DNA of 64,000 nt, from assembly GCA_028284905.1 (NCBI GenBank), contig JANQQU010000060.1, positions 62,001 through 126,000 on the forward strand. The letters are read 5' to 3'. The notes under the pieces are model-generated. The model was not told the DNA's origin. It saw nothing but the letters and a program-made list of their open reading frames with translations, and did no database searches. The stretch comes from Calditrichia bacterium (GTDB taxonomy: Bacteria; Calditrichota; Calditrichia; RBG-13-44-9; J075). Made by a program: the position numbers and the translations under genes. Shown piece after piece: positions 39,649 through 44,394 of this stretch. Position 1 is the first letter of the stretch. The number at the start of each line of letters is the position of its first letter.

Positions 39649-40782
39649 TTATTTTCCTGACGCAGACTTTTTACGTGCATTTTTTCGATGTTGCCGCCGT
39701 ACTTCATTAAATTTGGCATGCCAACGATTGTGCTCCCTCAAGGTCCTGGAAAACTTATGACTTCCATCTCCGATTGCCACCATATAAAGATACGGTGATG
39801 CAACGGGAAAAATACAGGCTAAAACGGATAATTTTCCCGGGTTGTTTATGGGGCCGGGAGGCAAGCCTGCATATTTATAAGTATTATAAGGCGAATCTAT
39901 TTCAAGATGCTTGTAAAGCAGCCGTCTTGGCGGACCCGGCAGAATATACTGGATCGTGGGATCTGCCTGCAAAGGCCAACCGAGACGCAGTCGATTGTAA
40001 TAAAGCGAGGAAATAACGACTCTTTCCGAATCTACAAGCGCTTCACCTTCAACGATTGAAGCAAGGGTAAGGATTTGGTACGGATCTCGGGAGATTAATT
40101 CGAGTTGTTTTCTTACGGAATCAGAATCGAAGATGTCCAGCATTTCCTGAACGAGGTGGGTGATAATTTTTTCTTCGGAAGTTTTCCATTCGAAGAAGTA
40201 CGTCTCCGGTAACAGGTAGCCTTCCAGGGAATGTGCGCCGGGGACTAACTTGTTTGCGAACGCACTATCATTTACCAAAGACACAAAGCGGGCGGAATCG
40301 ATACCAACAGCTTCCTGGAGTAGACTGGCCATTTTGTCGGATAAAATACCTTCCGGCAAAGTAACTTTTGAACGATGCGGCGGCGCATTTTCCAGATAGT
40401 TAAGCAATCTCCAGGGAGAAAGGTTTCTCGGTATATCGAACAAACCTGCACGCACCTTTTTTTCTTTCCCGGTAATTCTTCCCAGCAGCAGAAACAGCGT
40501 CTTATTGCTTAACAAATCTTTTTTAATTAACGAGTCAGCCACCTGATGAAAAGATGCACCGGCAGGAATCAGCAAAGTGCTTTTCGCTTCGTTATTATTT
40601 GTAACCTCTCCTGTGCTTTCCCAAAAAACAAGGTAGGTAAACAGCAACAATGGCACTCCGGCCAATGCCAGCTTTCCCAGGATTGTATAGCGTATAACAA
40701 ACCAAAGAAAGTGCCCAATCAGGAATACAACAAACCCGATTCGGGAAATGATATTATTTATTTTTTGAAGAAAAATATTCAA
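39649..40782 (-). CDS. mltG: MltG, endolytic murein transglycosylase
   Basis: 377 residues with a short cytoplasmic tail, one membrane helix (about 25-52) and a periplasmic YceG domain. S-I-V-E-G-E-A (242-248) has the catalytic Glu245; L-Q-A-D-P-T-I-Q-Y and Y-N-T-Y-K-Y-A-G-L-P-P-G-P-I-N-N-P are the diagnostic downstream motifs. The enzyme cuts nascent glycan strands and is thought to set chain length. The start is TTG with AGGA upstream. It precedes menF by 25 bases and follows the trpC-like gene by 39, so a multi-gene operon is likely. Confidence 0.94.
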   Translation of the reverse strand: MNIFLQKINNIISRIGFVVFLIGHFLWFVIRYTILGKLALAGVPLLLFTYLVFWESTGEVTNNNEAKSTLLIPAGASFHQVADSLIKKDLLSNKTLFLLLGRITGKEKKVRAGLFDIPRNLSPWRLLNYLENAPPHRSKVTLPEGILSDKMASLLQEAVGIDSARFVSLVNDSAFANKLVPGAHSLEGYLLPETYFFEWKTSEEKIITHLVQEMLDIFDSDSVRKQLELISRDPYQILTLASIVEGEALVDSERVVISSLYYNRLRLGWPLQADPTIQYILPGPPRRLLYKHLEIDSPYNTYKYAGLPPGPINNPGKLSVLACIFPVASPYLYMVAIGDGSHKFSRTLREHNRWHAKFNEVRRQHRKNARKKSASGK

Positions 40783-40821: not shown

Positions 40822-41619
40822 TTACAGTGCTTTCGTCCAATTTTGAATTTCCTGATATGCCCGGGAAAAATCAGGCTGCTGCCAAAAAGCGTCGTTCAGA
40901 ATCATACACTGAAACCCGCTTTGTTTTATCAGCTTTAAATCATTTCCGCTCTTCGGAAATGTTCGAATCAACGCCAGACAGCCTTCAGGGATATTTTTCC
41001 GATATTCACCAAGCTCATTAATGGTAAACCCATCAGCCGGGCAATCCACATTAACCACTACGCCATGAACCTCTTCCGGGTTTAGATTTTCTGGCAGAAA
41101 TCCATTCGGTGTTTCCAAATAAACTTCCAGTCCCATTTCATTAATCGCAGCAACGATATCGACAATTTTATCCGTTGGTGTAATTTCCGGGTCCAGAATA
41201 AATGCATCGCTGCCGATTGCTTTACCCTGGTATATTTGGACCGGATCCAGGAAAAAGTCCCGTTGAATGACCGGATATTCCATACGCCTTTTTACCAAGT
41301 TTATCCATCCGGGGTCCCCGCCCAAAAAATAAGGGTCAGTTGAAATAATCAGGCCGGCATTCAGGCCAATCTGTTGAAGTGATTTTAAAACCAGCAAAGG
41401 ATCAAATTGTTCAAGAGAAACCATTTCCGGAAAAAGGATTGATTTCATTTCTACTAACACAGGTAGTTCTTTTGCAGTCTCGATATCCACTTCCAGACTA
41501 CGGAAATCGCGACCAACAGAAAATGCAGCAGCTTTCAGAAAGTCCGCATCAAAATTTGTAGTTAATGCAGCAATTTCCGGTGTTTTAGCAGCTTCTATTT
41601 GTTTGAACAATTGACTCAT
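40822..41619 (-). CDS. TrpC-like (indole-3-glycerol phosphate synthase fold) protein, divergent active site
   Basis: 265 residues with a (beta/alpha)8-barrel pattern similar to TrpC. V-E-M-K (56-59) keeps the family Glu-x-Lys, but the phosphate loop A-S-P-S after it reads S-I-L-F. P-V-I-Q-R-D-F-F (116-123) has Arg120 where the catalytic general acid Lys of K-D-F lies. The L-V-E-V-H block reads V-Y-L-E-T (Glu169), and I-N-N-R-D-L reads V-V-V-N-V-D. A trpD-like gene immediately upstream makes a trpDC-like pair, but none of trpE, F, B or A is nearby. The changes suggest altered or lost IGPS activity; fold assignment is moderate. Confidence 0.68.
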   Translation of the reverse strand: MSQLFKQIEAAKTPEIAALTTNFDADFLKAAAFSVGRDFRSLEVDIETAKELPVLVEMKSILFPEMVSLEQFDPLLVLKSLQQIGLNAGLIISTDPYFLGGDPGWINLVKRRMEYPVIQRDFFLDPVQIYQGKAIGSDAFILDPEITPTDKIVDIVAAINEMGLEVYLETPNGFLPENLNPEEVHGVVVNVDCPADGFTINELGEYRKNIPEGCLALIRTFPKSGNDLKLIKQSGFQCMILNDAFWQQPDFSRAYQEIQNWTKAL

Positions 41620-42633
41620 CTATAGATTCCGGCTAAACTCTATCAAATCTTCCAATTTTTTGAGCGCTGCACCGCTGTCAATCGCAGTCGTTGCCTGGGT
41701 TACACCATCTTTTATATCTTTCGCTACGCCGGCCATTTTCAAGGCAGCGGCAGCATTATAAATGCTTATGTCGCGAGGGGCACCTTTTTCCCCTTTTAAG
41801 ATATCCATCAGTATTCGGTAGTTGTCTTCGATGTCGCCGCCCTTAACGTCGTCAATCGAATGGGTTTTCAAGCCAACATCTTCCGGGAAAAGTTCATATT
41901 CCCGTATGTCATTATCTTCCAACTCAACCACATAGGTTTTGCCGGCAATATTCAGCTCATCCAGCCCATTTTCTCCGCTAACAATCATCGCCCGGAAAAG
42001 TCCGAACTCCCGAAGTACTTCTGCGACCAAGTGTCCAAGGGTATGATCATAAACGCCGATCAAATGGCGTTTGGTTAATGCCGGTTTTGTTAAGGGATCC
42101 AGGATGTTGATCATGGTTCGGACACCGAGTGTTCGTCGAACCCCGGCGAACTGCTTGAAGGTTGGTTTATAGCGAGGTGCAAAAATAAAGGCAAGGCCAA
42201 TTGCTTTGAATACTTTATAAAACTCATCCGGAAAAAGTTCGGTTTTAATACCGAGCTTCTTCAATATATCCGCACTGCCGCATCGACTGGAGATGGAGTG
42301 ATAGCCATGCTTAACGACCTTTGCGCCAGCGCCCGCTGCAATAATCGCCGCGGCTGTCGAAATGTTAAATGTGCCTAAATTATCGCCACCGGTGCCACTG
42401 GTGTCGATAGCGTTATCATCATCAATCGAAAGTGGTGTCACTCTTTTCCGGTATGCATCGACGGATCCGGCGATTTCATCCACTGTACCACCCTTCAACT
42501 GCAGCGCAACCAGAAAAGCGGAAATCTGCGCTTCGGTTGCCTTGCCGGAAAGAATGTCATCCATTACCAGAAATGCTTCCCGGCGAGAAAGGGACTCTCC
42601 CTGGATAAACTTGTTAATCGCCTCTTTAATCAT
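41620..42633 (-). CDS. TrpD-like anthranilate phosphoribosyltransferase-family protein
   Basis: 337 residues, similar in length to TrpD. The PRPP-binding G-T-G-G-D (80-84), N-I-S-T-A-A-A (90-96) and S-S-R-C-G-S-A-D (115-122) are intact, as is a late D-E-L. The anthranilate pocket differs: K-H-G-N-R is K-H-G-Y-H (Tyr111) and G-P-L-T-N-P is D-P-L-T-K-P (179-184), although Arg172 is kept. The gene abuts the TrpC-like gene with no gap and follows the 5'-nucleotidase-like lipoprotein by 18 bases. It probably transfers phosphoribose, but the acceptor may not be anthranilate. Tryptophan synthesis remains possible. Confidence 0.83.
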   Translation of the reverse strand: MIKEAINKFIQGESLSRREAFLVMDDILSGKATEAQISAFLVALQLKGGTVDEIAGSVDAYRKRVTPLSIDDDNAIDTSGTGGDNLGTFNISTAAAIIAAGAGAKVVKHGYHSISSRCGSADILKKLGIKTELFPDEFYKVFKAIGLAFIFAPRYKPTFKQFAGVRRTLGVRTMINILDPLTKPALTKRHLIGVYDHTLGHLVAEVLREFGLFRAMIVSGENGLDELNIAGKTYVVELEDNDIREYELFPEDVGLKTHSIDDVKGGDIEDNYRILMDILKGEKGAPRDISIYNAAAALKMAGVAKDIKDGVTQATTAIDSGAALKKLEDLIEFSRNL

Positions 42634-42651: not shown

Positions 42652-43548
42652 TCAATCATTTAAACGTATTTGCCGATAATATTCTTCCACAATCATCATT
42701 GCTTCCGGGCTTATGGGCAAACTTTCCATTATCGGCAAGAACTCATGCGTAAAACGCCAGCTATCAGCTTCTTTCTTTGCAGAAATCTTACCCAAGAGTT
42801 CACCATCTCCACCGCATTCTGCTAAAGCGGTTTTGCCGACATACTCGAAACGACTTTCCTGATTATTGCCCAGCAAAATGAGATTGAGCCAGCTAAAATC
42901 TGCGGCCAACTTACGTGCACTTTCCCAATCTCCATGATATAGAAGCACATGAAAATCGTTTTCCTCGGCCGCTGCGGAGGCGGCAGTCAATACTTCTCCG
43001 GCTGCTTTAAATTGCATTCCGGATGGTTGAATAAAATGAAAAGTTTCTTTATTCACAAGCCCCAAAATAACAATTTTAAATTCCTGGTAACTTATTTCTT
43101 GCGAACGGATTAGTGGAATTTTTTCCGGCTCCTCTAAAAACAAATTAGCGGAAAGGAATGGCAATTCCGCTTGCTTATCAATGGTGTTTTCTTTCAGGAA
43201 ATCTACAGACTCAACAAACTCCTGGTCACCCAGGTTAAGCGCGTCATATTTAGCCAGCCAAAGCATTTTCAACATGGCCTGATTGGCAGCCGGCAATGAG
43301 TAGCTTGTTAACATATCCCCGGTGTCCAGCAAAATGGTATTAGGATTTTGGGTGCGGATGTTCTTGAGTTGGGCGAGAATGCGATCAAATCCACCAACAG
43401 TGTCTCCACCACATTGGCAGTCTTCGATTGCACCATTAAGGTTCGAGGTAAAAACGATTTCGATCACGTCTTCATTTCCCTCTGCACATGCATTGCAAAG
43501 GAAAAGCAAAATCAACAAGAACAAGACGTTAAGCTTTCCAAACACCAT
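42652..43548 (-). CDS. 5'-nucleotidase/UshA-like metallophosphoesterase, predicted exported protein
   Basis: About 298 residues from the ATG at 43548; the frame is open to 43596, but a terminator ends at 43610, leaving no room for a promoter. A hydrophobic N-terminus ends in L-C-N-A-C, a weak lipobox. F-T-S-N-L-N-G-A-I-E-D-C-Q-C, G-G-F-D-R, L-L-D-T-G-D and N-L-G-D-Q-E-F follow the order of 5'-nucleotidase-type metal-site motifs, but the first Asp-x-His is replaced by Asn-Leu-Asn, as in a subgroup with C-x-C. It is first in the probable trpD-trpC-mltG-men operon. Activity and substrate are uncertain. Confidence 0.72.
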   Translation of the reverse strand: MVFGKLNVLFLLILLFLCNACAEGNEDVIEIVFTSNLNGAIEDCQCGGDTVGGFDRILAQLKNIRTQNPNTILLDTGDMLTSYSLPAANQAMLKMLWLAKYDALNLGDQEFVESVDFLKENTIDKQAELPFLSANLFLEEPEKIPLIRSQEISYQEFKIVILGLVNKETFHFIQPSGMQFKAAGEVLTAASAAAEENDFHVLLYHGDWESARKLAADFSWLNLILLGNNQESRFEYVGKTALAECGGDGELLGKISAKKEADSWRFTHEFLPIMESLPISPEAMMIVEEYYRQIRLND

Positions 43549-43607
43549 AGGCTGACTTTCTCGCTTTGCTCGACTTCGACATTCACCAAACAACAACTTC
43601 GGCTAAA

Positions 43608-43665: not shown

Positions 43666-44394
43666 CTAGTCGTTCAGGTTATGCTCATCTTCCAGCCGGC
43701 ATGCTTCGATTAGCACATTCATCGTTGAACCAGTGATGTTCTTTTCAACCTCTTTCATTCCCGGCTCAAAACGAAATTTGCCCTTAGATGACGGCACAAC
43801 TTTGTAAATTGCGTCTTCACCTAGCAAGCTACCATATTTACCGTAGGCCATCTGACCATAATGAAATACGATCTCGCCTTTTTCAGAGGCTTCGACATAA
43901 AGCGTACCACTGCGCTGATTGAGATTCAACAATTGAATTACTTCTGCCAGGGAAAGATCAGCCAGATTGCCTTCAAATCCTTTTACGGATTCACCGGGAT
44001 TATTGTCAAAAGATTTTACCCGATTCGCTCTTTCCAAAAGGGTTTCCACTTTTTCCAGCAACACGGATCTGTCAACCGGTTTTACCAGGTATTCGTCTGC
44101 GCCGGCCCGGAAACCACGAATTTCCATTTCCTGGTCCTCTAAACTGGTAAGAAAGATAAACGGCACCATTGGGATCGGGGAATTCTCCCGAATCATCCAA
44201 CAAAACTCAATGCCATCAGTCATAGGCATCATTACATCCGAGATAACCAAATCCGGCAATACCTTTTTTGCCTCTTCAAGTCCTTCGTCGCCATTTCCTG
44301 CCTGAGCGACATCATATCCGGCCTTTTCCAGACTAATTTTCAGAAGCTTTAGGACGTGCTCATTGTCATCCACGATCAGAATTTTCTTTCCCAT
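43666..44394 (-). CDS. Response regulator with receiver and DUF4388 (PatA-N-like) domain
   Basis: 242 residues. The receiver (about 1-120) has D-D-N near the N-terminus, the phospho-acceptor in V-I-S-D-V-M-M-P (about 50-57) and a late K-P pair. The C-terminal part holds L-I-L-N-L-N-Q-R-S-G-T-L-Y-V and F-H-Y-G-Q-M-A-Y-G, typical of DUF4388/PatA-N modules in gliding and developmental regulators of several phyla. It has no DNA-binding domain, so it probably works by protein contact. A second response regulator lies immediately upstream on the same strand, and a terminator follows. Confidence 0.9.
   Translation of the reverse strand: MGKKILIVDDNEHVLKLLKISLEKAGYDVAQAGNGDEGLEEAKKVLPDLVISDVMMPMTDGIEFCWMIRENSPIPMVPFIFLTSLEDQEMEIRGFRAGADEYLVKPVDRSVLLEKVETLLERANRVKSFDNNPGESVKGFEGNLADLSLAEVIQLLNLNQRSGTLYVEASEKGEIVFHYGQMAYGKYGSLLGEDAIYKVVPSSKGKFRFEPGMKEVEKNITGSTMNVLIEACRLEDEHNLND

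Follow-up and report, generated by a model that had tools for sequence, protein, structure and literature searches.

Anthranilate phosphoribosyltransferase (AnPRT, TrpD) and IGPS (TrpC) are the described proteins closest to the gene pair reported here. In the AnPRT of M. tuberculosis, Asn138 contacts anthranilate and Arg193 holds the anthranilate carboxylate (PMC9835598). Yeast AnPRT has Gly-Lys at the place of the Asn-Arg pair, so a change of this Asn alone would not be decisive (PMC9835598). The residues Lys53, Lys110, Glu159 and Asn180 are essential in IGPS (S. solfataricus numbering; PMC7681013), and the K119R substitution in M. tuberculosis IGPS, at the equivalent of Lys110, lowers kcat more than 2700-fold (PMC10591298). 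We analyzed a window of 64,000 nucleotides from a Calditrichota genome in which neighboring genes code for altered forms of both proteins, called TrpD* and TrpC* below.

TrpD* is a TrpD-family protein of 337 amino acids (41620-42633, minus strand). Its gene abuts that of TrpC* (40822-41619, minus strand), an IGPS-derived (beta/alpha) barrel of 265 amino acids, with no gap at the 41620/41619 junction. Scans for promoters and terminators gave results at about chance level. TrpD* matches the TIGR01245 trpD profile at 364.7 bits, well above the curated cut-off of 199.05, so annotation pipelines will name it an AnPRT. The YbiB model gave 62.8 bits against a cut-off of 185. Structural modeling, as proposed in a first-pass annotation of this DNA, produced an AlphaFold2 model of TrpD* with a pLDDT of 87.3, and Foldseek matched it to AnPRT structures at a TM of ~0.9. 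Sequence identity to AnPRTs in the PDB is ~32-42%, with the two best structural matches at 37-42%. The protein ends in the C-terminal helix typical of TrpD.

The PRPP site of TrpD* is intact and its acceptor pocket is rebuilt. The PRPP loop reads GTGGDN. The KHGNR motif of ordinary TrpD has become KHGYHS (42295-42312, minus strand), with Tyr111 and His112 in place of Asn-Arg. Lys156 (42166-42168, minus strand) replaces the invariant His of FAPxxHP, and DPLTKP (42082-42099, minus strand) carries Asp179 and Lys183 where GPLTNP has Gly and Asn. We searched 40 genomes of the phylum and found close TrpD* copies in 11 relatives besides the window genome. Ten of these are full length and 67-71% identical to the window copy; the copy in G038 is a fragment. 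We compared the 11 full-length proteins (window copy counted, all from Calditrichota) with 22 ordinary TrpDs. The Lys at the conserved His position occurs in 11/11 TrpD* proteins and the His in 22/22 ordinary ones, and the same counts hold for DPLTKP and its ordinary counterpart. KHGYH is likewise invariant in the 11 TrpD* proteins, which come from three families of one order, and 22/22 ordinary TrpDs have Asn at the Tyr111 position. Thus, none of the three signatures of an anthranilate pocket (the Asn of KHGN, the His of FAPxxHP and GPxxNP) is present in any full-length TrpD*. The first-pass annotation had singled out KHGYH and DPLTKP in the window protein; both are there, and their invariance among the full-length copies shows that they are not chance changes.

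The extent of the switch is narrow. Of 37 positions that are invariant among the ordinary TrpDs, exactly five carry new fixed residues in all 11 TrpD* proteins (N111Y, H156K, F175I, G179D and N183K), and all five lie in or near the anthranilate pocket. The remaining 32 are retained, except for partial variation at A121 and N176. The PRPP and magnesium residues (GTGGD, NxS, the Lys of KHG, Ser and Asp-Glu) are kept in 11/11 and no PRPP residue is among the five, which bears out the earlier observation that the pocket changed around an intact PRPP site. The carboxylate-binding Arg (Arg193 in M. tuberculosis) is also invariant, as R166. A scan of 84,980 species, which required short conserved stretches and may have missed diverged copies, found no KHGYH outside Calditrichota; its sole match that was not Calditrichota-like has KHGNR. 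We found nothing on such a subfamily in the literature searched. Judged from these alignments, the TrpD* proteins form a fixed subfamily and are not noise.

The trpD* gene is under strong purifying selection. Its dN/dS was 0.057 in the pair G030/G031 and 0.022 in G026/G027, the lowest among the genes compared in both pairs, although such ratios are approximate because several of the pairs have a dS close to saturation. The adjacent response-regulator gene follows closely at 0.025. In G037/G039 the ratio was 0.032, a value that cannot be ranked because the dS of the neighboring genes is saturated. The TrpC* gene evolves faster, with a dN/dS of 0.16-0.22 that still indicates some purifying selection.

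Both genes sit between two anchors. Upstream lies 5NT, a gene for an UshA-like metallophosphatase-type lipoprotein (42652-43596, minus strand), and downstream lies the gene for MltG/YceG (39649-40782, minus strand; PF02618, 260 bits). An orthologue of 5NT in L041 matches NF041198 (UshA_like_PCGU) and PF00149. In almost every genome examined, 5NT precedes trpD or mltG, and mltG follows the trp remnant wherever the contig extends that far. Two genomes, G020 and G021, show the order 5NT-trpDCFBA-mltG with ordinary motifs, and G024 reads 5NT-trpD-C-F-B up to the contig end. The arrangement in the window's taxonomic order is 5NT-TrpD*-TrpC*-mltG, with one additional opposite-strand gene adjoining TrpD* in G030 and G031. 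At this site TrpC* is missing from G038 and G039, which have TrpD*, and TrpD* is missing from G033, which has TrpC*. Families f4 and f6 have 5NT-altered TrpD-mltG, where the motif is KHG[HTKYSQ] followed by R, K or H. Seven genomes have nothing between 5NT and mltG (G034, G032, G001, G006, G012, G016 and G017). Three genomes of the same family, G032, G033 and G034, do without TrpD*, a point that counts against the interpretation favored below.

We built a TrpD tree from which the pocket columns had been removed. The syntenic TrpDs formed one clade (support 97/90). Gene order and this tree together therefore indicate that the window pair is the remnant of a trp operon at the 5NT-mltG site. A common origin of all altered TrpDs was considered and discarded, since a single clade was rejected (p-AU 1.8e-5). 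On the tree, position 111 must have changed three times; read most simply, this means several parallel losses of the anthranilate Asn. Constraint on the copies in f4 and f6 seems looser than in the window's order: the altered TrpD of f4 has a dN/dS of 0.125 (G009/G011), the motif varies, and an altered TrpD in G014 (L087:1-765) combines KHGYH with GTGGA and so has lost the PRPP Asp. The G014 gene shares its contig with ordinary trpEGDCF and is possibly a decaying copy.

The upstream flank has features of its own. In the window copy of 5NT, LNLGDQEF takes the place of the GNHEF of UshA-type enzymes, and to judge from this motif the protein may be inactive. Farther upstream, positions 43666-44394 encode a response regulator with a C-terminal DUF4388, which is ~73-82% conserved upstream of 5NT in several relatives.

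The distribution of tryptophan genes separates TrpD* from tryptophan synthesis. Other trp genes had been reported as absent, which holds within the window and fails for the genome (G000; 8.55 Mb in 93 contigs). The search for a canonical operon that the first-pass annotation had called for found a full trpE-G-D-C-F-B-A on another contig (G000:C26:4331-11409), with the canonical motifs KHGNR, GPITNP, KKASPSAG and KDF. The genome's third Glycos_transf_3 gene lies on C40 and, to judge from its sequence, probably encodes a pyrimidine nucleoside phosphorylase. In five TrpD* carriers (G030, G031, G036, G037 and G039), genome searches did not find trpA, trpB or ordinary trpC and trpD; the sole trpA match in G036 is a sub-threshold fragment. 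The best trpE match in these five, where there was any, scored ~145-149 bits against a cut-off of 517.7 and is MenF-grade. G029 shows the same pattern in a fragmented draft. Gene absence in a draft may reflect missing sequence and is weak evidence genome by genome, and we accept the retention of TrpD* without trp genes because five genomes agree and one of them, G039, is a single contig. From their gene content, the five would be tryptophan auxotrophs. That several carriers appear to lack tryptophan synthesis argues that TrpD* works outside it. Together with the canonical operon elsewhere in the window genome, this supports the earlier proposal that the pair does not serve tryptophan synthesis.

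Two genomes of f4 show a related pattern. G009 and G011 encode a TrpB ~53% identical to that of the window genome (G009:C7:144335-145468 and G011:C9:7106-8248), and trpA, trpC, trpE and trpF were not detected in either; the altered TrpD still stands at the 5NT-mltG site. Indole salvage is a possible role for this TrpB.

TrpC* departs further from its parent family. EMKSILFPEM stands where EIKKASPSAG is canonical, and QRDF replaces RKDF, with RDF at 41254-41262 (minus strand). The missing ASPS loop and the RDF noted in the first-pass annotation are thus both seen in this reading frame. The catalytic Lys of KDF is L, H or R across orthologues. In the alignment of orthologues, the equivalents of Lys53, Lys110, Glu159 and Asn180 vary within the TrpC* clade, as do those of the phosphate loops. 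TrpC* cleared PF00218 by a narrow margin (40.8 bits) and missed every NCBIfam IGPS cut-off by far. Its model is a confident barrel (pLDDT 90.2) whose best structural match is IGPS, at a TM of ~0.7-0.78. Phylogeny had been suggested for both proteins, and the TrpC* clade proved well supported (100/100) on a very long stem. Grouping with the syntenic TrpCs was not rejected (p-AU 0.228), and a stem of this length keeps the tree from showing an origin, so descent from the syntenic trpC is argued from gene order. These residue patterns make TrpC* a probable pseudoenzyme, which would act structurally or as a partner protein.

We propose that Calditrichota ancestrally had a trpDCFBA operon flanked by 5NT and mltG. 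As synteny and the TrpD tree show, trpF, trpB and trpA have disappeared from the site, and the window's order retained trpD and trpC. TrpD* has kept its PRPP, magnesium and carboxylate-Arg residues, and five otherwise invariant positions were swapped. We consider it probable, though well short of certain, that TrpD* is a neofunctionalized phosphoribosyltransferase and that the pair is an operon remnant. The enzyme would be an active PRPP-dependent transferase whose acceptor is not anthranilate and is probably still a carboxylate, because the carboxylate Arg is kept. No neighbor common to all TrpD* carriers names this acceptor. TrpC* would be a catalytically dead barrel in an accessory role, perhaps as a binding partner of TrpD*, and dispensable in some lineages.

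Strong conservation would also suit a non-catalytic TrpD*. The protein could be a PRPP- or nucleic-acid-binding sensor, regulator or partner protein of the TrpD2/YbiB kind, with TrpC* as its partner. TrpD2 provides a precedent (PMC10123104), the very strong constraint falls on a gene that relatives can lose, and the TrpC* next door resembles a dead enzyme. TrpD2, however, lacks the PRPP motif and shares <20% identity with AnPRT (PMC9835598), whereas TrpD* keeps all canonical PRPP and magnesium residues and is changed in or near the acceptor pocket; we regard a sensor or partner role as rather unlikely, though a serious contender. A back-up or salvage AnPRT with a tolerated pocket would fit the high TIGR01245 score and the retained carboxylate Arg, and the Asn is missing from yeast AnPRT too (PMC9835598). 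Such a copy would hardly be expected to change five invariant residues together and then fix them, to persist where trpE, trpA, trpB and ordinary trpC were not found, or to adjoin a TrpC* that has lost the IGPS residues, and we give it little credence.

The first-pass annotation had read the pair as a new phosphoribosyl pathway. Its substrate change agrees with the transferase reading of TrpD*; a pathway of two successive steps catalyzed by TrpD* and TrpC* appears very improbable. The two genes are adjacent and gapless in the window, the selection on TrpC* is partly purifying, and the Glu and Lys of EMK are kept in the window copy. Against a second enzyme stand the variation of the Lys110, Glu159, Asn180 and phosphate-loop equivalents within the clade, the fast evolution of TrpC*, and the genomes in which either protein occurs without the other. 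Menaquinone genes nearby had also been noted. Only in the window's family is MltG followed by MenF and MenD; other carriers have UvrD or unrelated genes there, so we treat these neighbors as incidental. A PurF-like PRPP-amine role was dismissed because nearly all genomes, apparent tryptophan auxotrophs included, have PurF and thus no gap to fill.

A TrpF (PRAI) paralogue of the window genome (G000:C20:41802-42497; L096:7802-8497, minus strand) has Ala in place of the Cys of KICG, giving IQ[IV]AG, and keeps Asp126 and the phosphate loops. We take this Cys and Asp to be the catalytic residues of PRAI. Relatives of the Cys-less TrpF occur in L097-L100, L102, L104, L106 and L107, also in genomes without trpA, trpB or trpE. 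It is present in 9/12 TrpD* genomes and in G034, which lacks TrpD*, and at comparable similarity in 0/24 genomes outside the order. We do not regard it as an obvious operon partner, since its neighbors are not conserved and its co-occurrence with TrpD* is imperfect. We can imagine an undescribed route in which TrpD* phosphoribosylates a new aromatic carboxylate, the Cys-less TrpF reworks the product and TrpC* is a scaffold. The TrpF link comes from co-occurrence, and we think the route unlikely. A second TrpF-like group with KICC in place of KICG (L101:7377-8060, L103:6617-7285, L105:7845-8567 and L108:1515-2174) is scattered and has no conserved neighbors.

An AnPRT label on TrpD* would predict a tryptophan step in bacteria apparently unable to make tryptophan. 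The 5NT-mltG site is a natural experiment: in several lineages trpD survived there after its pathway had gone, and one of these lineages arrived at a new pocket that is tightly conserved. How an enzyme of primary metabolism is recruited to a new substrate can be tested directly here, with the sister enzymes of G020, G021 and G024, which retain the pathway, as controls.

Compared with described systems, TrpD* is closest to AnPRT (TIGR01245; PDB 9ucw, 4hkm and M. tuberculosis TrpD), with which it shares fold, length, PRPP and magnesium residues and the carboxylate Arg. It differs by N111Y, R112H, H156K, F175I, G179D and N183K in and around the acceptor pocket, and it is not tied to tryptophan genes. 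Class II nucleoside phosphorylases such as thymidine phosphorylase have the Glycos_transf_3 domain in common with TrpD*, which lacks their extra C-terminal alpha/beta domain and gives far lower scores with their profiles. TrpC* resembles IGPS in its barrel fold and partial PF00218 match, whereas the catalytic Lys, Glu and Asn and the phosphate loops are lost or variable. Finally, the DNA-binding TrpD2/YbiB proteins, like TrpD*, use a TrpD-derived fold outside tryptophan synthesis, and the PRPP motif that they are missing is kept in TrpD*.
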